Assembly: GCA_015228895.1 (NCBI GenBank) | Contig: JADGCR010000067.1 | Span: 1 to 10,170 of the forward strand | DNA length: 10,170 nt | Source: Magnetococcales bacterium | Lineage (GTDB): Bacteria; Pseudomonadota; Magnetococcia; Magnetococcales; Magnetaquicoccaceae | Direction of reading: 5' to 3' | In this document: positions 344 through 10,170 of the stretch, piece by piece | How positions within the stretch are numbered: position 1 is the first letter of the stretch | How the letters are laid out: every line of letters begins with the position of its first letter | Translations under genes and position numbers: made by a program | Notes under the pieces: model-generated | Told to the model about the DNA's origin: nothing | What the model saw: only the letters and a program-made list of their open reading frames with translations | Database searches by the model: none

Positions 344-3300
344 TCACCCCAACACGGTTTTGCTCAACAATGGTCGCAATGGTCGCAATTCATGGCGCAA
401 CCGGAGATTCTCATCCATCAGCCCCTGCAACACGCGCTCCTCCACGGGAGGAGACGCCACGATTTCCGGCACCTCGACCACCGGTTCCGGATCGTGGGTC
501 CTGGCCTGCGGCAGGGGAAAAGCGTACTTTCTGCGCTGTTTGGCCATCACTTTGCGCGCCGGTTGCGGCGTGGGGGACGGTGGTCGAAGCGCCGGAGGCT
601 CCCCAATGGGCGGGAGGGCCGAAGGGGTCATGCCCAACCGGGTCCGCACCTCGGAGATGCGCGTCAAAAGCGCGTTGGTCTCGCTCCGCAAGGCCGACAG
701 AAGACGGAACTCCTGGGAATCCCTGGTGACAGCCCTCTCCGGCACCTCCCGCAACTCTTGCAACAGGGCGTCGATCTCCAGCGGGGTTTGTTCCAACAGC
801 GGACCGCAATCCGCCACGACCCGGAGAATGTCGGGATCGTCGATGCCACTCCGGCGCACGTCCAGGAGAAGCAGATTGATGCCCAGGAGGTTCTGTTCCG
901 CGTCTTCGAGTCGTTCCCGGATGGCGTGGATCATCGACGCGCCATCAACCTCTCCCGCCACCCTCGCCTCCCCGTCCCCTCCGCCCCGAAGAGGCGCGAC
1001 CGGAACGCCGGACAACGGGGATGCGGCCCGCACGATCAGATCCGTCGGCACCCGCGGCTCCATGACGACCACCGTGGGGAGGGGTTCCCGCTCCTCCACC
1101 TCCTCCGACCCGCTCCCGGGTTCCCAGGCCAGCAGACGGGGGGCGGGAGCGATTGGTTGGATGGTGGCCATCTCCCCGGCCACGGCTTCCTCCTCCGGCG
1201 TCGTGTCCCGTGGTCCCCAGGTCAGCAGACGGGGTGTCGCCGTCTGTCGGGTCTCCACCTCCGGTGGGATGGATTGGTTCCGCACCGGAACCGCCTCCTC
1301 GCCCACCGGCTGCGCCATGAAGGGGGGAGTCGAAGGCAGACGCGCGCCCCCGCCCTGTTTGGTCAGCATGGCGGTCCAGACCCCGCCCGGCTCCCGGGTC
1401 TCGGCCTGGACCAAGGAGAGGGGCGCGAGCGCGTCCCCTTGCAGTTCGGCGAGCAGTTCTTCCCGCACCAGGGACTGGAACCGCTCCTGTTTGTCCTCCA
1501 GACGCAGACCCAACTCCCGACCCGCCAACCGCATCACCTGACAGGGAAACCGCTCCTGCCCACCGTCCCAGACCAGACGCAGCACCCCGTTTTCCCCTTC
1601 GTCGAACCCTTTCAAGGGCTTCCAGGAGAGCATCTTGAGGCCGGTGGGACTGATATCGCGGGTCACCCCTTCGCAATGAGCGCCACCCGCGCCGGTGAAC
1701 ATCACCCGCGTCTCATGGGCTTGACGTTCCGTATTCCGCCGGGTGCTGACCTCCCTTTTGAACGTGCTCCTGGAGGGAACCAGCGGAAATTGACCCCGCT
1801 CCCCCGCGAACCGGGCCGCCTCCGCCGCCGCCAGTTCCGCCTCCAGGCGTCGATCGATGATGGGGGGTTTGTCCATGGAACGCCTCACCTCCCGCACCTT
1901 TTCCAGGATCTCCCTGGCTTCCCGTTCCAGGCTGCGCAGCTCCTCGAATTTTTTCTCGTTGAGGGGTTCTCTCGGATTGAGAATGGCCTCGATGCGCCCC
2001 AGAATGGAAGAGGCCATGCGGGGCGCGTCGTCGATCTCCTGCCGGTTCTGCGCCAGAGATCGCAACAGGGACTGGGGTGGAAGGGGCATGTTGCGAATCT
2101 CCAACCCCCGCAGATTGATCTTCAACAGGGTCTGATTGATCTCGTCCCGGGTCGCTTTCACGCTGTTGACCACGCCGCGCATGTCGGCGATGGCCTCGCG
2201 TTCCACCTTTTGCGCCTTTTCCAGGGCGGCCCGCATTTCCAGTTCCAACTGGTTGAGCTTCTCGACGAACACCGACTGGTCCCCACCCCCGGTGATGGTG
2301 CGGGCCATGTCGTCGATCTCCTCCTTGTTGGTCACCGCGGACAGAACCCGCTCGTCCAGATCCGGCCCCAGAAACTGGGAGACGCCCCAGATCTCCAGGG
2401 TGCGCTTCTCCATCTCCATGAATTTCTGTTCCATCTCCTCCACCCCCTCCACGCCCCGTTTGGCGCAATAGGTGGGGAAACGGTTCCAGATTTCCATCAA
2501 CGGTTCGAACGTCTCGTCCTGGATTCTGGGCAGGGTCTCCCCCAGGGTGACTTTCAAGGTGGGAATGAAATCGAACAGGGTCTCCAGTCCCTCGCCGAAC
2601 TGTCGGTTGCGGGCCTCGATCTCCCGCAGCCAGACCAGCCGGGTGTATCCGAAAAAGGAGACCGGAGCCATAAAGGCCTTCTGCGACAAATAATAGATCA
2701 GAACACGGGCCAGGGTCACCGGGGGAGGCGCGAGCTCGCCATCCGTCCCTTCATCTCCCTCTTCGTCATCGTCCTGCGCGTCCGATCGTCTTTTGACCAC
2801 TCTGGACTGGGCGTTTTCAGAGGAGAGTCTGGCGGCCTCCTCCTCTTCCTCCCGTTTGGCGTGCTCCAACTCGGCGGTCAAGCGATCCAGGGAGCTTTTG
2901 GGTTTGCCCTGCTTGAACCAGCCCTCCAGTTTGCCGGACTTCGCCCCGCCGACGACCACCGGAACCCCGGATCCTTTTTCCGGTTTGCGACTGGCCCACC
3001 ACTCCGCGATGCGGGCTTCCATGGACTGGGCGCCGCTCAGGGTGGTGGCCCGCATCTCCAGGTTCAACTGCTCCCTGGCGATGTTCGACTGCTCTTCCAC
3101 ATGACGGATCAACTCCGCGAAACTCCCCCCCTCCAGCACCTCGTTTTCCATGACTCCGGGAAAGATCCGATTGATGAAACTGGCGAAAAACAGTTCCCGT
3201 CGCGCCAGGAGGTGATGCACCGCGTCCGCGCGGGCGTTATAACCCTCGATATCCACGATCCGCGTGGTCTCGAAGAGGGATTTGAACCACTGGACGATGC

Positions 3301-5323
3301 TCTCCCCCCAGGAGAAATGGACGTGATCCTTGACCTTCGGGTCCACCTCCTCCAGCATCAGGGAATAGGCGTTGCGAATCACCGTCTCGTTGGGGAACGG
3401 CATGCCCGAAAGAATGGTCTCCAGATCCTCCCGGTCGAAGAACACCTTGCATCGGGAGGCGAAGTCGTTTTCCCACTCCTTGAGTTTCTTGAGTCGCACC
3501 TTCAGTGCGTCCCGGTCCTTTTTGCCCTGCACCGCGGTCAGACGGCTGTAGAGCATGGGATTGGCCATATCCATGCTGAGGGCGATCATGAAAATGACCA
3601 GCAGCAGGGAACTGGCCAGGGCCACGCCGAAACTTTCGTTGAGAAACACCTTCAACTCCTCGAAAGTCTTGTGGGTGGCCGCTGGTATGGCGTTCTTCCT
3701 GAGTTCATCGATGGCGTCGATGTTGGGAATGGGGGCCTTGGCGTCGATCTGGTATTTGGTCTCCCCGACGATGCCGGTCCGGTCCAAAGCCAGGAGCAGG
3801 GCGACATGGTCATCGGTGAGACGGTTCATGCGCTCGGCGACCGACTTGTAATGTCGGGTATTCTCCTCCAGGGCATCGGTGATCTCCTTGACGAGTTCGT
3901 TGATCTCGTAGTGTTCCAGATTGAACACCCGGCTCAACTCCGACCAGGAGAGATCCTGCATGGTCATGAGGTGATCCAACTGTCTGAGTTTCGCTTCCGC
4001 CAGATCCACCGTTTTTTTCAGATGATTCTCATATTCGCCCCGCAGGACGGCGATCTTGTCCGGGACGGAGGGTTTGAAATCGAGTTTGGATTCCCGGATC
4101 AGTTTGTCCATGGTCTGGGCCATGGCGGCGTTGCCCAGGGAACTGGAGACATCCGCCGTCCCCTCCGCGTACCCCCCCATGATGACATAATGCTTGCCCC
4201 AGTAGCGCGGACCCAGCCCCACATTGCCGCTGGAGGCCCCTCCCCCCGCTTCGTCCTTGGGAATTTGCAAAAACTTCTGGGTCGCCACTCCGGCGGCCTC
4301 CTGCAGGATCAGTTGCAGGTCGTGGAGATTGCCCGGATTGGTGGTTTTGGCCTCCTTCGGAGACCCCAAAGCCTTGCGGACTTTCTGCTTGATCACAAAG
4401 GACTGTCCATCCAGGTCCGCCTTTTTGGAGACCAGGGAGACGATGCCGTCGTAGTTGGTCTTGATGGAAATGGCGGTCAACAGCGTGGCCACGAGCATCC
4501 AGCGGGGATAGCGCAGGAAGGCGTGCCCGATCCCCTTGAAGACCGCGCCCGCCTCGGCGATGCAGCGAAACAGCCGGGCTTTGTAATCCAGAATGAGCGC
4601 GGTGAGAATCAGGCCGAAAGTGTAGGCGATCAGATTCCGTTCGAACTCCGCGGCGCTGCTGCCATACCCTTCGTTCATGAAGGGTATGGCCCCCGGCATC
4701 TGGAGCAGGTCGCTCACCCCGCGGGCCGTGGTGTAGGTGGAGCCGAAAAAGACAAAAATCTCGATGGGCAGCTTGCCGGAGTTCAGCCATTTGTCGAGAG
4801 TGGCGCTCACCTTGCTGAACAGGCCCGCCTTCCGGTTGCCCGCCCCCCAGATATCCCTCAGGGTGGGGACGAAGGGTACGGACTTGGGGGGATTGAGACT
4901 CGATTGGCTCTGGAGATACTGCAAAAGCCTGGTGGAGGCGTCGAGATTGAGACGATAGACCGCCTTGACGACGGAGTAGAACGGATTGTGTTCCAGGCGG
5001 GTTTCATCCCCGGACTGCAAGGCGTCCTTGAACTCCTTGAATTTCTGCGTGACGGAGCCCCCGGAACCGCCCCTGCCATCCTCCCGTTCCTGTTGCAGGT
5101 GGCGGCGGAGGGTGTCCACCGCGTTCTGGATCTCCCGGAGTCTGGCGGGGGGGGCGTGCTGGGCCAGGGTTTCGAAATCCGCCTCACCCGTTTCGTCACC
5201 CCAGACGCCCCCCGGAGCAAAAGAGGACTCCATGCGCACGAAAACGGGATACCCCTCCAGGCTGTCCGGGGAGAACAACTGGTCAACGATCTTGCCAAAA
5301 ACATCGAAAAGAGGATTACTCAT
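344..5323 (-). CDS. Giant membrane-anchored PilZ-domain protein of unknown function
   Basis: A protein of about 1659 residues. Hydrophobic segments lie near residues 231-247, 274-288 and 563-583, with a weaker one at 186-199. Positive charge between the first two segments and after the third suggests that residues ~290-562 face the periplasm and everything after ~585 the cytoplasm. Further on are a Glu-rich stretch (825-830), an acidic linker (847-863), probable coiled coil (~1018-1150) and a PilZ domain (~1194-1276). The PilZ domain keeps both c-di-GMP-binding motifs, RRNTER at 1195-1200 and DISPTG at 1223-1228. A Pro-rich linker with a repeated PRLLxWxP motif follows, then helices at ~1430-1530. 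The frame extends upstream to a TTG at 5416, but I chose the ATG at 5323 because the paralog downstream starts at the equivalent place; no clear ribosome binding site precedes it. Binding of c-di-GMP is inferred from the motifs. The effector role is unknown; divergence from a pilus operon hints at pilus or surface control. Confidence 0.85.
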   Translation of the reverse strand: MSNPLFDVFGKIVDQLFSPDSLEGYPVFVRMESSFAPGGVWGDETGEADFETLAQHAPPARLREIQNAVDTLRRHLQQEREDGRGGSGGSVTQKFKEFKDALQSGDETRLEHNPFYSVVKAVYRLNLDASTRLLQYLQSQSSLNPPKSVPFVPTLRDIWGAGNRKAGLFSKVSATLDKWLNSGKLPIEIFVFFGSTYTTARGVSDLLQMPGAIPFMNEGYGSSAAEFERNLIAYTFGLILTALILDYKARLFRCIAEAGAVFKGIGHAFLRYPRWMLVATLLTAISIKTNYDGIVSLVSKKADLDGQSFVIKQKVRKALGSPKEAKTTNPGNLHDLQLILQEAAGVATQKFLQIPKDEAGGGASSGNVGLGPRYWGKHYVIMGGYAEGTADVSSSLGNAAMAQTMDKLIRESKLDFKPSVPDKIAVLRGEYENHLKKTVDLAEAKLRQLDHLMTMQDLSWSELSRVFNLEHYEINELVKEITDALEENTRHYKSVAERMNRLTDDHVALLLALDRTGIVGETKYQIDAKAPIPNIDAIDELRKNAIPAATHKTFEELKVFLNESFGVALASSLLLVIFMIALSMDMANPMLYSRLTAVQGKKDRDALKVRLKKLKEWENDFASRCKVFFDREDLETILSGMPFPNETVIRNAYSLMLEEVDPKVKDHVHFSWGESIVQWFKSLFETTRIVDIEGYNARADAVHHLLARRELFFASFINRIFPGVMENEVLEGGSFAELIRHVEEQSNIAREQLNLEMRATTLSGAQSMEARIAEWWASRKPEKGSGVPVVVGGAKSGKLEGWFKQGKPKSSLDRLTAELEHAKREEEEEAARLSSENAQSRVVKRRSDAQDDDEEGDEGTDGELAPPPVTLARVLIYYLSQKAFMAPVSFFGYTRLVWLREIEARNRQFGEGLETLFDFIPTLKVTLGETLPRIQDETFEPLMEIWNRFPTYCAKRGVEGVEEMEQKFMEMEKRTLEIWGVSQFLGPDLDERVLSAVTNKEEIDDMARTITGGGDQSVFVEKLNQLELEMRAALEKAQKVEREAIADMRGVVNSVKATRDEINQTLLKINLRGLEIRNMPLPPQSLLRSLAQNRQEIDDAPRMASSILGRIEAILNPREPLNEKKFEELRSLEREAREILEKVREVRRSMDKPPIIDRRLEAELAAAEAARFAGERGQFPLVPSRSTFKREVSTRRNTERQAHETRVMFTGAGGAHCEGVTRDISPTGLKMLSWKPLKGFDEGENGVLRLVWDGGQERFPCQVMRLAGRELGLRLEDKQERFQSLVREELLAELQGDALAPLSLVQAETREPGGVWTAMLTKQGGGARLPSTPPFMAQPVGEEAVPVRNQSIPPEVETRQTATPRLLTWGPRDTTPEEEAVAGEMATIQPIAPAPRLLAWEPGSGSEEVEEREPLPTVVVMEPRVPTDLIVRAASPLSGVPVAPLRGGGDGEARVAGEVDGASMIHAIRERLEDAEQNLLGINLLLLDVRRSGIDDPDILRVVADCGPLLEQTPLEIDALLQELREVPERAVTRDSQEFRLLSALRSETNALLTRISEVRTRLGMTPSALPPIGEPPALRPPSPTPQPARKVMAKQRRKYAFPLPQARTHDPEPVVEVPEIVASPPVEERVLQGLMDENLRLRHELRPLRPLLSKTVLG
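1118..1234 (-). repeat. Internal repeat in the PilZ protein linker (PRLLxWxP twice)
   Basis: Two 24-base segments, at 1211-1234 and 1118-1141, encode PRLLTWGP (from residue 1364) and PRLLAWEP (from residue 1395). They are 93 bases (31 residues) apart. Each copy is followed by an acidic stretch. They sit in the Pro-rich linker after the PilZ domain. They could be a duplicated short docking motif; the function is unknown. Confidence 0.6.
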
Positions 5324-5450
5324 ATTCAGGATGGGGCGTCCAAAAAACCACGATTTATGCCATAATCCGCCAGCAAGCTGAGCCGATTTTTCATGTTTCG
5401 GAGCAACGCGGGTCAAGCTTTACCATTTTCACACTGCCCAGAGCGGGACA

Positions 5451-5635: not shown

Positions 5636-5655
5636 GAAAGAATTTTCGATTTTTT

Positions 5656-5686
5656 TTGAACGACTCATGTTTGCAAACCTTAAAAT
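5656..5686 (+). promoter_or_regulatory. Candidate distal promoter of the minor-pilin operon, with embedded palindrome
   Basis: TTGAAC (5656-5661) and TAAAAT (5681-5686) are separated by 19 bases, longer than the optimal 17. The spacer contains the perfect 10-base palindrome GTTTGCAAAC (5669-5678). A protein bound there would lie between the two boxes, where it could repress or, as with MerR-type regulators that act on 19-base spacers, activate. No regulator can be named from the window. Confidence 0.3.
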
Positions 5687-5791
5687 ACTAAAAAAACGAC
5701 ATGCCGCCACCGCACCGACTCGACAAAACAGCGTTAACGATCGTCGCCAGGGCGCTGTCCGCAAAAAAAATGAACAGTCATGTATTTTTTC

Positions 5792-5885: not shown

Positions 5886-6437
5886 ATGAAACTCCCTCGC
5901 AACCCCCGATATCCCGCCGGATACACCCTGGTCGAAATGCTGTTGGTTATCGCGATCGTCGCCACGCTTGCCGTCATGGTGGCCCCTCCCCTCTCCTCCG
6001 CCTTGCAAAACAACCGCATCTCCACCCAGAGCAACGCCTTGATCGGCACGTTGCAATTCGCCCGCACCGAGGCGGTCAGGCGGGGTTCCGCCATCACGGT
6101 GTGCGGTTCCGCCACGGGTCTCGCCTGCGGGGGGAACTGGCAGGAGGGCTGGATCGTGCTCTCCGGCTCCACGCTCCTCAAGGCCCATCCCAAACCCGGC
6201 GGCGGCAACACCCTGCGTTTCAATCTCTCCTCCGGGGCCGCCTCCAACCAGATCCTGTTCAACTCCCGTGGTTTCAGCCCCAATCACGCGGGCGCGATGA
6301 CCCTCTGCGACCCACGAGGCACGGCGTTCGTCCATGGCATCCTCCTGGCCGCGACGGGTCGCGTCCTGCCGGCCCCGGACGCCAATGGCGACGGCATCCC
6401 GGAGGATGCCAGCGGGAACGGACTCTCATGCCCATGA
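5886..6437 (+). CDS. fimT: GspH/FimT-family minor pseudopilin (FimT/FimU)
   Basis: First gene of the minor-pilin operon; 183 residues. The leader MKLPRNPRYPAG is followed by YTLVEMLLVIAIVATLAVM, a class III prepilin signal expected to be cut by PilD after Gly12. Glu lies at mature position 5, followed by the N-terminal hydrophobic helix. Downstream features fit FimT/FimU: LQFARTEAVRRGSAITVC (56-73), an NWQEGW motif, and near the C-terminus FNSRGFSP, a CDPRG turn and ATGRV. Four cysteines (73, 81, 141, 182) could form two disulfides. The DNA-binding GRxR motif described for competence-type FimT is incomplete here (GRVL), which favours a structural, FimU-like role. The ATG at 5886 is the only in-frame start after a stop at 5820-5822, but it has no nearby ribosome binding site. 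Its end overlaps pilV by 10 bases. Confidence 0.88.
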   Translation: MKLPRNPRYPAGYTLVEMLLVIAIVATLAVMVAPPLSSALQNNRISTQSNALIGTLQFARTEAVRRGSAITVCGSATGLACGGNWQEGWIVLSGSTLLKAHPKPGGGNTLRFNLSSGAASNQILFNSRGFSPNHAGAMTLCDPRGTAFVHGILLAATGRVLPAPDANGDGIPEDASGNGLSCP

Positions 6438-6904
6438 AGCCACGACACCCTGACGGCTTCACCCTGCTGGAGGTGCTCATCACCCTGGCGATCCTCTCCG
6501 TGGGTCTGCTGGGGCTGGCAAAGATGCAGCTGAACGCCATCCGGTTCACCCAAAGCGCCTACCTGCGCAGCCAGGTGATCTTTCTGGCCTACGACATGTT
6601 CGAACGGATGCGCGCCAACCGCACCCTGGCCCTCAACGGTGCCTACAACACCGGGTTCGACACGGTGGTCACGCCGGGGACCGACTGCGCGCTCGCGACC
6701 TGTTCCCCCGCGCAGATGGCCACCTTCGACCTGGCCCAATGGAAAAGCGATCTGAACCAGCTGCTCCCCTCCGGGGAAGGGGAGATCACCCCCATGGTCA
6801 CGGGCGGCCCGGAAGCGCTGTTCGACATCTCCATCCGCTGGGACGATGACCGCAGAGCCGAGGTCATCGCCCATAAAACCTTCTCCCTGAAGTCGGAAAT
6901 ATGA
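6428..6904 (+). CDS. pilV: Type IV pilus minor pilin PilV
   Basis: 158 residues, with prepilin leader MPMKPRHPDG followed by FTLLEVLITLAILSVGLLGL. This has the Gly/Phe cleavage site, Glu at mature position 5 and a hydrophobic helix. The AYDMFERMRANR segment at 54-65 is a hallmark of PilV, as are DLAQWKSDLNQLLPSGEG (101-118) and the closing ISIRWDD (134-140). Two cysteines (87, 92) could pair. PilV is a minor pilin of the complex that primes pilus assembly and presents PilY1 at the tip; it acts in the inner membrane and periplasm. The start at 6428 has a GGA five bases upstream. A second in-frame ATG at 6434 forms an ATGA overlap with the fimT stop and gives 156 residues; both keep the same leader cleavage. 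Its own stop overlaps the pilW start as ATGA (6901-6904), indicating translational coupling. Confidence 0.9.
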   Translation: MPMKPRHPDGFTLLEVLITLAILSVGLLGLAKMQLNAIRFTQSAYLRSQVIFLAYDMFERMRANRTLALNGAYNTGFDTVVTPGTDCALATCSPAQMATFDLAQWKSDLNQLLPSGEGEITPMVTGGPEALFDISIRWDDDRRAEVIAHKTFSLKSEI

Positions 6905-7923
6905 AAAACCGCGGATTCACCCTGATCGAAATCATGATCGCCCTGACCATCGGCCTGGTCCTGATCTCCGGCATGCTGAAAATCCTCTCCAGCACCCGCC
7001 AAACCTACCTGTTGAACGAAAACATCTCCCGATTGCAGGAAAATGCCCGTTTCGCCATGGAAGTCATCTCGCGGGAGATCCGCATGGCGGGATACTGGGG
7101 CTGCGTCTCCAATGTCACCCCCATCAATGTCCTGAACACCCCCAACGCTTACTCCTGGGCGTTCAACCGCAAGGTGCGCGGCTACGACCACGCCTCCCCA
7201 GCCACCTTTCCCGCCGCTTTCCAAAGCGACGCCCTCGCCGGTTCGGACGCCATCGTCCTCTCCGGGATCGATCCCGATCCCTTCACCATCGAGTCCCACA
7301 ACGCCTGTTCCGCCCAGTTCAAGCTGGCGCAAAACCACGATCTGAACGACGACGAGATCGTATGCGTCACCGACTGCGTGCAGGGGGCCATCTTCCAGAT
7401 CACCAACGCCAACCAGGCCAATCGAACCATTGTCCACAACACCGGCACGGGCACCATCGGCAACGCCACCAAATGTCTGGGCGGGGAGTGCGGGGGAGCC
7501 TGCGCCACGGCGTGGCACGAGTACGGACCAGACGCCATGCTGGCCCGCATCCGGGCGCTGGCCTTCTACATCGGCACCGGCTCCAACGGGGAACCGGCGC
7601 TCTTCTGGGAAATCCTCAACCGGGGCAGCGCCTCCACCCCGGCGGAGCTGGTCAACGGGGTGGAGAACCTCCAGATCCTGTATGGTCTGGATGGCGACGG
7701 GGACAAGGTGGCCAACCAGTATCTGACCGCCGACGGCGTGGAGTCCGCCAACGGCTGGGACTCGGTCGTCAGCGTCCGCATCGGACTGCTCATGCGCACC
7801 GGCGACTTCATCCGCTCCCAGCCGGACAGCGGCACCAACACCCTGGCGGGCACCACGGTCAGCCATACGGCGGACTACCGCATCCGCAGGGTGGTCACAT
7901 CAACCATTCAACTGCGCAACTAA
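6901..7923 (+). CDS. pilW: Type IV pilus minor pilin PilW
   Basis: 340 residues. The very short leader MKNRG precedes FTLIEIMIALTIGLVLISG, with Glu at mature position 5. The conserved PilW segment LQENARFAMEVISREIRMAG follows at 45-64. The C-terminal half has the usual ELVNGVENLQILYGLDGDGD (249-268) and WDSVVSVRIGLLMRTGDF (286-303). The Asp-rich DGDGDK at 264-269 could bind a cation, but this is inference. Seven cysteines are present, five of them between 155 and 201 (155, 159, 192, 197, 201), suggesting a disulfide-stabilised inserted region. PilW belongs to the minor-pilin tip/priming complex with FimT/FimU, PilV, PilX and PilY1. It starts inside the pilV stop (ATGA), and pilX begins one base after its TAA. 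Confidence 0.9.
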   Translation: MKNRGFTLIEIMIALTIGLVLISGMLKILSSTRQTYLLNENISRLQENARFAMEVISREIRMAGYWGCVSNVTPINVLNTPNAYSWAFNRKVRGYDHASPATFPAAFQSDALAGSDAIVLSGIDPDPFTIESHNACSAQFKLAQNHDLNDDEIVCVTDCVQGAIFQITNANQANRTIVHNTGTGTIGNATKCLGGECGGACATAWHEYGPDAMLARIRALAFYIGTGSNGEPALFWEILNRGSASTPAELVNGVENLQILYGLDGDGDKVANQYLTADGVESANGWDSVVSVRIGLLMRTGDFIRSQPDSGTNTLAGTTVSHTADYRIRRVVTSTIQLRN

Positions 7924-7924
7924 A

Positions 7925-8875
7925 ATGACGGCCATGACGCGACAAGAGGGTTCGGTCTTCATCATCACCCTGATTCTTTTGAGCATCCTGACGCTCCTGG
8001 GAGTCACCGCCACCAAAAACACCTCCATGGAAGAGGGGATGGTGAGCAACACCCGTGACCGGCAACTCGCGTTCCATGCCGCCGAGGCGGCGATGATGGC
8101 GGGGGAACGCCTGGTGGAAACCAGCCACCCCGACTTCGAGGCCACCTGCGCCAACGGGTATTGCACCCAGGGATGTCCCTCCCTGCCCCGCTGGACCGAC
8201 CCCGCGCTGGGGGTCTGGAACACCACCAACCGTCATCAAACCTACTCCGTGCAACTGGAAGGGGTGCTCTCCCCACCGAAATTCATCATCGAGGATCTGT
8301 GCGAATACGGTTCCAAGAGTTGGCGGGATGCCAATCCGGGTTGGACCGACCTCCCCCAGCGGATGTACCGGATCACCGCCATGGGAAGCGGCGGGAGCGA
8401 CAACGCCCGGGTCATGCTCCAATCCACCTACGCGGTCACCCGGATGGCGGACCCCGCCTGCGCCCTGTGCGATCCGGCCTCCCTCTCCGGCGTCACCTCA
8501 ACCACCACCAGTTCCACCACCTCCACCACCACTTCCAGCACGACCTCCTCCTCCAGCACGACGACGACCACCACCCCGACCACCACCTCCACCGTAGCCA
8601 GCACGTCGTCCAGCACCTCCACCAGCACCTCCACCAGTTCCGCGGCCAGCACCTCCACGACCACCACCACCAGTTCGACCACCACCACCTCGGTGCCGGT
8701 GAGCACCACCACCACCTCGGTCTACGACTGCCGGTGCAAAAAACATTCGAGCGGTGTCGGAAAAAAGACCTCGGATCAACCCGTCTGTTGCACCAACTCC
8801 GTATGCGACGCCAACCGGCCCGCCAATTTCTCCAGCATGTCAACCAACGACATCTACTGGATCACCTGTTATTGA
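7925..8875 (+). CDS. pilX: PilX-like minor pilin with Thr/Ser linker and cysteine-rich C-terminal tail
   Basis: 316 residues. The N-terminus MTAMTRQEG then SVFIITLILLSILTLLGVTA fits the PilX N-terminal domain: a prepilin-like Gly followed by a hydrophobic helix without Glu at position 5, then NTRDRQLAFHAAEAAM (42-57), which is typical of PilX. A pilin-like globular part runs to about residue 185 with Cys75, 80, 84, 126, 179 and 182. What follows is unusual: a linker of about 79 residues, almost wholly Thr and Ser (188-266), and a 50-residue tail with six cysteines (269, 271, 288, 289, 294, 315). Ordinary PilX proteins end near the globular part. The linker resembles O-glycosylated spacers, and the tail may be a small disulfide-bonded module exposed at the pilus tip; both are inferences. 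No ribosome binding site is evident, so translation is probably coupled to pilW. The second ATG at 7934 is an alternative start. Confidence 0.85.
   Translation: MTAMTRQEGSVFIITLILLSILTLLGVTATKNTSMEEGMVSNTRDRQLAFHAAEAAMMAGERLVETSHPDFEATCANGYCTQGCPSLPRWTDPALGVWNTTNRHQTYSVQLEGVLSPPKFIIEDLCEYGSKSWRDANPGWTDLPQRMYRITAMGSGGSDNARVMLQSTYAVTRMADPACALCDPASLSGVTSTTTSSTTSTTTSSTTSSSSTTTTTTPTTTSTVASTSSSTSTSTSTSSAASTSTTTTTSSTTTTSVPVSTTTTSVYDCRCKKHSSGVGKKTSDQPVCCTNSVCDANRPANFSSMSTNDIYWITCY
8486..8722 (+). repeat. Low-complexity ACC/TCC/AGC repeat encoding the PilX Thr/Ser linker
   Basis: The DNA is dominated by imperfectly repeated ACC, ACG, TCC and AGC codons, giving long Thr and Ser runs broken only by scattered residues such as Pro218, Val224-Ala225, Ala240-Ala241 and the VPV at 257-259. 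Such tracts can change length in steps of three bases by slippage without breaking the frame. Confidence 0.8.
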
Positions 8876-8896: not shown

Positions 8897-10170
8897 ATGC
8901 ACCACCGTCATCTTGCCTATGGCCTCTGCGCGCTGCTGTCGTTCTGGTGCCACGACCTGGCCCACGGGGCCTCCAACGCCGACTACGCCGCCCTGCCCCC
9001 CACCCTGCCGGCTCTGGTGGACCCCAACGTCATGCTGAACCTCTCCATCGAGACTCCCATGCAGGGGGCGGCCTACAACGACCAGCCCAACGGCGCCCTC
9101 TGCGGGGGACGGATCAACGACGGGGGGACGGTCGGGGTGTGCTACGCCCACGAAAACGAGTACATCGGCTACTTCGACCCGGACAAGTGCTACTCCTACA
9201 CCAACAGCCGCTTCGAACCCGCCGCTCTGGCCACCTCCCACCAGTGCAGCGGGCAGTGGAGCGGCAATTTCCTCAACTGGGCCACCATGACCGCCATCGA
9301 CGAGTTCCGCTGGGCGCTCACCGGGGGCAACCGCTCCACCGACACCACCGCCCTCACCGTCCTGGAGCGCTCCAACATGGGCCTGGGCAAGGGGGACTCC
9401 TGGTATCCGGTCAAGATGATCTCCTCGACCCAAAACGTCGCCCCCTCCACGGTCACGCCCTACACCAACAGCAAGATCTACCTCTACAACCATGGCACCC
9501 AGTTCGACATCGGCACCAGCTGGGGCGGAAGCGAAAAGGTCACCAATCTCAACGCCCGCGTCATGGTGTGCGACAGCGGGATCAGCCTGGAGGACAACTG
9601 CATCCCTTACGGAAACCACCACAAACCCCAGGGCTTGATTCAAAACAACGCCTACCGGATGCGCTTCGCCCTGATGAGCTACACCCGGGACGACGGCAAA
9701 AGCCGGGATGGGGGGGTGCTCCGGGCCAACATGAAATACGTCGGTCCCCTGCGCCCCGCCTCCGGGGGGGGGCCTGGAGACCAACCCTCACGCCGAGTTC
9801 GGCACCGATGGCCTGTTCCTCTCCAACCCGGATCAGGTCACCCTGACCGCCGGGGTCTCCAACTCCGGGGTGATCAACTATCTCAACAAGTTCGGCGCCA
9901 ACGGTTACAAGTCCTACGACCCCATCGGCGAACTGTTCTACGAATGCCTCAATTATTTCAAGCACCGTGGCCCCACCTCGGAATACGCCTCCGGACTCGG
10001 CGACGCCCAAAAAGACGGCTTTCCGGTCCTGACCAGCTGGAACGATCCCGTTCAGCACGCCTGCCAGCAGAATTTCATCATCGGCATCAACGACGCCAAC
10101 CCCTGGCTGGACAAACAGTTGCCCGGCACCACCCAGACTGGCAACAACTATTTCGGTCTGCGCGCTCTGA
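8897..10170 (+). CDS. pilY1: PilY1-type pilus tip adhesin/assembly factor, frameshifted at a G9 tract and cut by the window edge
   Basis: Begins with a signal peptide (MHHRHLAYGLCALLSFWC, likely cut after AHGA at residue 25). PilY1 motifs follow: GYFDPDKCYSY (91-101), SGNFLNWATM (122-131) and an ALTGG at 140-144. At 9764-9772 nine G break the frame at codons 290-292. From 9771 the homology continues one frame over with GVSNSGVINYLNKFG, a KSYDPIGELFYE segment, DGFPVLTSW and QQNFIIGINDAN, all characteristic of PilY1. Eight G would restore one continuous frame. Without correction, the original frame stays open as unrelated Arg/Pro/Gln-rich sequence to the window end. The position where other PilY1 proteins have a DxSxS metal site of a von Willebrand A fold reads NLSIETPM (48-55), so that site appears absent. 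The expected C-terminal beta-propeller lies beyond the window. PilY1 is exported and works with the minor pilins in pilus assembly, adhesion and surface sensing. Confidence 0.85.
   Translation, partial: MHHRHLAYGLCALLSFWCHDLAHGASNADYAALPPTLPALVDPNVMLNLSIETPMQGAAYNDQPNGALCGGRINDGGTVGVCYAHENEYIGYFDPDKCYSYTNSRFEPAALATSHQCSGQWSGNFLNWATMTAIDEFRWALTGGNRSTDTTALTVLERSNMGLGKGDSWYPVKMISSTQNVAPSTVTPYTNSKIYLYNHGTQFDIGTSWGGSEKVTNLNARVMVCDSGISLEDNCIPYGNHHKPQGLIQNNAYRMRFALMSYTRDDGKSRDGGVLRANMKYVGPLRPASGGGPGDQPSRRVRHRWPVPLQPGSGHPDRRGLQLRGDQLSQQVRRQRLQVLRPHRRTVLRMPQLFQAPWPHLGIRLRTRRRPKRRLSGPDQLERSRSARLPAEFHHRHQRRQPLAGQTVARHHPDWQQLFRSARS
9764..9772 (+). repeat. Nine-G homopolymer at the pilY1 frameshift
   Basis: An uninterrupted run of nine G after TCC lies exactly where the pilY1 reading frame switches. 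Eight G (or a length differing from that by three) would keep the frame open. It is either a sequencing or assembly indel or a slipped-strand contingency tract. Neisserial pilC, a pilY1 homolog, is known to phase-vary through a poly-G run, there in the signal-peptide region. Confidence 0.85.

Follow-up and report, generated by a model that had tools for sequence, protein, structure and literature searches.

A nine-G tract at a reading-frame change in a Magnetococcales pilY1 gene: singleton indel or contingency switch

A phase-variable member of the PilY1/PilC family is neisserial pilC, which switches through a tract in the signal-peptide region (PMC13190605). In Neisseria, poly-G/C tracts of at least nine bases are counted as potentially phase variable, and the G tract of pilC1 is given as 9 to 20 bases (PMC5953494); in tests on meningococcal genomes, variability predominated among homopolymers of at least eight bases (PMC5084427). 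Within Neisseria, switching of pilC is reported from the pathogens only (PMC5953494). Another precedent is the singleton frameshift gene of draft assemblies: according to a frame-transition survey, such genes are likely indels or sequencing errors (PMC3711429). Literature pairing “Magnetococc” with phase variation was also sought, and neither term occurred in any matching title or abstract.

The stretch of DNA analysed here, referred to as the window, comprises all 10,170 bases of a contig from a Magnetococcales bacterium. It carries a cluster in the order fimT-pilV-pilW-pilX-pilY1, in which pilY1 comes last (Table 1). The genes fimT, pilV, pilW and pilX are each in a single frame against the relatives' loci, and minor pilin genes immediately 5′ of pilY1 form a neighbourhood of the PilY1/PilC type. 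The C-terminal half of the pilX product contains a long low-complexity stretch of Ser and Thr, perhaps a flexible linker. On the minus strand lies a gene of 1,690 codons (344-5416), whose residues 1226-1316 match a PilZ domain (24.1 bits, cut-off 22.5). It is open throughout, including across a G8 run at 5147-5154, and since it found no match among the relatives' loci compared with the window, its intactness is judged from the open frame alone. The start of a second minus-strand gene (3-347) overlaps its end; by eye, the first residues of the two are similar, and they are perhaps tandem paralogues.

Table 1. Pilin and pilY1 features of the window.
Feature	Position	Strand	Remarks
fimT/gspH-type minor pilin gene	5886..6437	+	Pfam GspH 63.6 bits, also N_methyl
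pilV	6431..6904	+	NCBIfam TIGR02523 type_IV_pilV 109.9 bits, cut-off 52.2
pilW	6901..7923	+	Pfam PilW 102.8 bits
pilX	7925..8875	+	Pfam PilX C-term 53.4 bits, PilX_N 50.3 bits
pilY1 upstream part	8897..9763	+	289 codons, signal-peptide-like start
G9 tract, site of frame change	9764..9772	+	
pilY1 downstream part	9774..10169	+	different frame, cut by contig end

No other homopolymer in the window, whatever the base, is as long as the nine-G run; next come the G8 already mentioned, A8 at 5763-5770 and T8 at 5650-5657. The frame that opens with the ATG at 8897 is PilY1-like up to residue 289 (base 9763), and from base 9774 on the likeness continues in another frame. Seven relatives (L001-L005, L098, L099; L101 repeats the genome of L002, hence seven genomes) have open frames that match the window as two pieces in different frames, one of which ends at 9772-9790 while the other starts at 9747. 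In an eighth relative, L040, whose own contig carries both pieces, they share one frame. A model of codon usage, trained on the relatives, also detects a frame change between the 300-base flanks of the tract. The same model flags a G7 at 9710-9716, whose right flank takes in G9; because the model alone is unable to separate the two, the break is placed at G9 by the protein matches. No other frame break was seen in the pilin and pilY1 part of the window. The reading frame of pilY1 changes at G9, as an earlier note on this DNA had observed; its view of the gene as pilY1-like holds as well. The PilY1 of relatives matches on both sides of the break, and the two-piece matches meet at 9747-9790. As read, the frame stays open to the contig end, with 424 codons in total and about 130 codons without a stop after the tract. 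The consequence is an altered sequence from about residue 290 on, with a stop outside the window.

Residues 22/23-289 are 80-85% identical to the Magnetococcales PilY1 of L001-L005, and the downstream part is 80-84% identical to that of L001-L005 and L040, among relatives' loci taken as the best 80 of 283. The identity to L040 is 76% over residues 196-289, where its contig begins. On sequence similarity, the nearest relatives are Magnetococcales metagenome-assembled genomes. Nine of the 48 genomes in the class of G002 (G002 included) match at 1e-10, eight of them closely (G001-G006, G033, G045) and one distantly, at 39% (G020); the remaining 39 give no match at this threshold. The eight Magnetococcales PilY1 clusters P0118-P0125, two of which (P0120 and P0123) are named PilC/PilY family type IV pilus protein in the source, resemble the window in gene order where compared, in the glycine-rich turn at the tract, and in 75-85% identity over the first 289 residues (BLASTP). 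Unlike the window, they have an unbroken frame and mixed codons at the tract place. Both pieces are thus similar to PilY1 of relatives, as expected of a PilY1/PilC family member. Searches with Pfam and NCBIfam profiles gave no match for either piece; the window's own PilY1 protein carries a precomputed PF28373.1, a model that did not turn up in the set of Pfam profiles used. The C-terminal beta-propeller PF05567 is found in the relative L002 (43.4 bits, cut-off 28.1), in a region that lies beyond the window's contig, and a full-length PilY1 relative had no match among solved structures. Within a set of 236 other proteins, obtained from a length-limited search and from the best 120 of 2,350 matches of a second search, the best match to the upstream piece reaches 85% identity, and a further copy from the window's lineage was not found in that set; the window's own PilY1 protein forms a cluster by itself, with a single sequence from a single contig.

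In all eight Magnetococcales genomes with a close copy, the tract place is in frame, has a single constant length and is written with mixed codons without a G run longer than six, a length reached in G045. In L087 and L088 (G033 and G045) the pieces lie in one frame, as in L001-L005 and L040. The length of the window at this place differs from those of the eight relatives by a non-multiple of three, and all eight full-length protein clusters, which overlap with the genomes, are continuous through it. The place corresponds to a glycine-rich turn after a KYVGP motif; in the eight relatives the turn consists of Gly/Thr/Asn, two glycines, Leu/Met and Glu, with mixed third positions. In the window's pilin and pilY1-N pieces, GGG accounts for 34 of 107 glycine codons. 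When the homologous place was scanned for the motif, 16 of 82 loci had the strict pattern, and the longest G or C run was six. The MKYVG motif occurs in 95 of the 236 other proteins, with three glycines within the next 12 residues in 20 of them and two in 49; the glycine triplet would therefore be a trait of Magnetococcales and of part of the family, not a universal one. In comparison with the eight aligned relatives, on which the conclusions on the tract place rely, the tract is private to the window.

These relatives bear directly on programmed recoding, in which slippage of the ribosome or the polymerase at the run would join the two frames into a full PilY1. Both parts seem conserved as protein, the frame as read runs on after the tract for the stop-free stretch noted above, and slippery stretches are reported to affect polymerases as well as ribosomes, a statement made of poly-A/T (PMC3711429). 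However, the relatives encode PilY1 in one frame without a long run at the tract place, so that a recoding site is not conserved there, and we consider recoding very improbable.

The G9 tract by itself is unremarkable. Among 3,000 first-order Markov sequences with the window's composition, 52% contain a G or C run of at least nine bases. On both strands, the eight related genomes, from which statistics on genome scale were taken, have from 34 (3.8 Mb) to 303 (4.5 Mb) overlapping 9-G matches, counts inflated by the overlaps and by poly-G near some contig ends; this corresponds to at most about 0.1 to 0.7 per 10 kb. On these figures, an argument from the improbability of G9 alone was rejected. 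What is remarkable is the coincidence of the tract with the only frame break in the pilin and pilY1 part of the window.

The behaviour of long runs in related assemblies was followed at 61 runs of at least nine bases in 60 regions (27 in G005, 15 in G001 and 19 in G006), drawn from 75 separate places among the matches listed for these three genomes. The flanks were in the same frame at 15 runs, in differing frames at three and on different strands at 11, while 12 runs were coding-like on one side, 16 on neither side, and four stood at edges. Two of the 15 same-frame runs have a stop inside the 300-base flank on one side. Among the frame-differing cases, stops mark L121 and L143 as gene boundaries, and the third, L113, is a probable break. 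A stricter control, which this one replaced, had placed few of the runs: five were in the same frame, one was a frame shift and one a boundary, while 24 were one-sided, 27 unclear and three at edges. The idea that runs of at least nine bases usually break frames in these assemblies was rejected, 15 being kept against one probably broken. Since such runs are normally read in frame, the break in the window is a minority event, for error and mutation alike, and not a routine outcome of runs of this length. The L113 run (1001-1009, G005) is a G9, and L162 contains the same run near 8910; in this genome, an open frame of 2,979 codons with RTX-type calcium-binding repeats is followed by one of 408 codons in another frame.

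Long runs read in frame are also found in pilY1 itself: 14 of the 80 pilY1 loci hold 16 runs (G/C of at least eight or A/T of at least nine) within the open frame, including G9 in L003 and L078 and C10 in L052. Four of the 80 loci have an open frame shorter than 700 codons from the match start, two of them by the contig end; in the two shortened by a stop, there is no run of eight in the 60 bases before. A second short PilY1, P0002 (382 aa, Magnetococcales, longest contig 53,615), was considered as a sign that pilY1 breaks at G runs are recurrent in the clade, and rejected. It is near-identical to the PilY1 of L004 except for the last ~13 residues, which seem unrelated and fit neither other frame of L004, and in the DNA of this near-twin no long G run was seen by eye at the corresponding end. 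The end of P0002 looks like an insertion or a chimera.

The pilY1 genes of the eight relatives have six coding-strand G runs of at least eight bases against 2.19 under synonymous shuffling, six or more being reached by 8 of 500 shuffles. G runs of at least six number 22 against 11.5 expected (reached by 0 of 500 shuffles), and C runs of at least eight number two against 2.74 expected. The control set of 191 other genes, with 94,959 codons from six of the eight genomes (excluding 3,500 bases of L182 that run into pilY1), has 11 G runs of at least eight against 11.69 expected, and a mild excess of those of at least six (129 against 104). Thus, pilY1 is enriched in G runs in this clade. Three of the six longer runs belong to G004, a generally G-run-rich genome (3 against 1.4 in 2,939 control codons), and three of the six share one place, a Trp-Gly-Gly motif (G8 at L001 7462, L004 10566 and L088 1735, the last in G045, all in frame). 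The frame is kept at these runs, which drive the excess. Because of the concentration in G004, the shared place and the relatedness of the sequences, the excess goes back to few independent events, and it is a weak hint of a switch.

Such a switch would work by slipped-strand mispairing at G9, turning PilY1 on and off together with pilus priming or adhesion, and the contig would come from an off cell; we hold this to be unlikely. The locus is like neisserial pilC1 and pilC2 in being a PilY1/PilC family gene with a G tract inside the reading frame that reaches the Neisseria threshold of at least nine (PMC5953494). That PilC is a known phase-variable homologue (PMC13190605; PMC5953494), a point on which the earlier note was right, and that most meningococcal homopolymers of at least eight vary (PMC5084427), speak for a switch, as do the G-run excess in relatives' pilY1, absent from the 191 other genes, and the probable second G9 break in another large surface-type gene (L113). 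However, the tract stands about 290 codons in, after codon 289, and not in the signal-peptide-coding region as in Neisseria (PMC13190605). It is absent from all eight related genomes, which are of other species, and no length variant was found among them. Furthermore, the G-run excess comes from few events with the frame kept at each, and neisserial pilC switching is reported from the pathogens only (PMC5953494). The earlier note had named non-homopolymer codons of constant length in related strains as a finding that would speak against its switch, and this is what the eight genomes have, across other species, together with unbroken frames; of its interpretation, the pilY1 identity, the frame change and the pilC analogue stand, and the switch is not supported.

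Because the frame remains open for about 130 codons past the break, up to the contig end, the product of an off cell would be long and altered in sequence. There is a small chance of a contingency switch that swaps PilY1 after about residue 290 and does not stop it near the start. It would be a young, lineage-specific poly-G switch in a pilus-tip protein of a free-living magnetotactic-type bacterium, which is improbable; that it is one outcome of a wider accumulation of G runs in this group's surface genes is similarly doubtful. None of the observations demonstrates that the run is maintained for switching.

Most probably, the window carries an ordinary Magnetococcales-type pilY1, the gene for the tip protein of the type IV pilus, in which a singleton indel sits at a G run that arose by drift. 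The glycine-rich turn would happen to be written with GGG in the window's lineage, which would give a G run by synonymous drift and nothing more, and an indel in this run, by error or by a recent slip, would then break the frame. Intact relatives of one length in eight of eight cases, the position of the tract on conserved glycines and the one-sequence cluster support a singleton indel. As in the singleton frameshift genes of draft assemblies, a single sequence is broken at the window's longest homopolymer, the protein is conserved to either side, and the relatives are intact. Counting against the singleton indel are the runs of at least nine in relatives, with the same frame at 15 and differing frames at three of the 61, the unbroken G9 elsewhere in the pilY1 of L003, and the G-run excess in relatives' pilY1 but not in other genes. 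As to the origin of the indel, we infer that it may well be a sequencing or assembly error in the G run, to which we give not quite an even chance; such a homopolymer error, the plain alternative of the earlier note, is a leading explanation. It is possible, if more doubtful, that slipped-strand mutation produced a real one-off indel, either in the strain that was sequenced or in part of its population. The probabilities of all these readings are our judgement, not computed values.

A homopolymer frame break in one contig needs to be set against relatives and reads before a switch is called. If the switch were true, PilY1/PilC phase variation would reach beyond host-adapted pathogens into free-living aquatic bacteria, and the case would bear on why such switching evolves.
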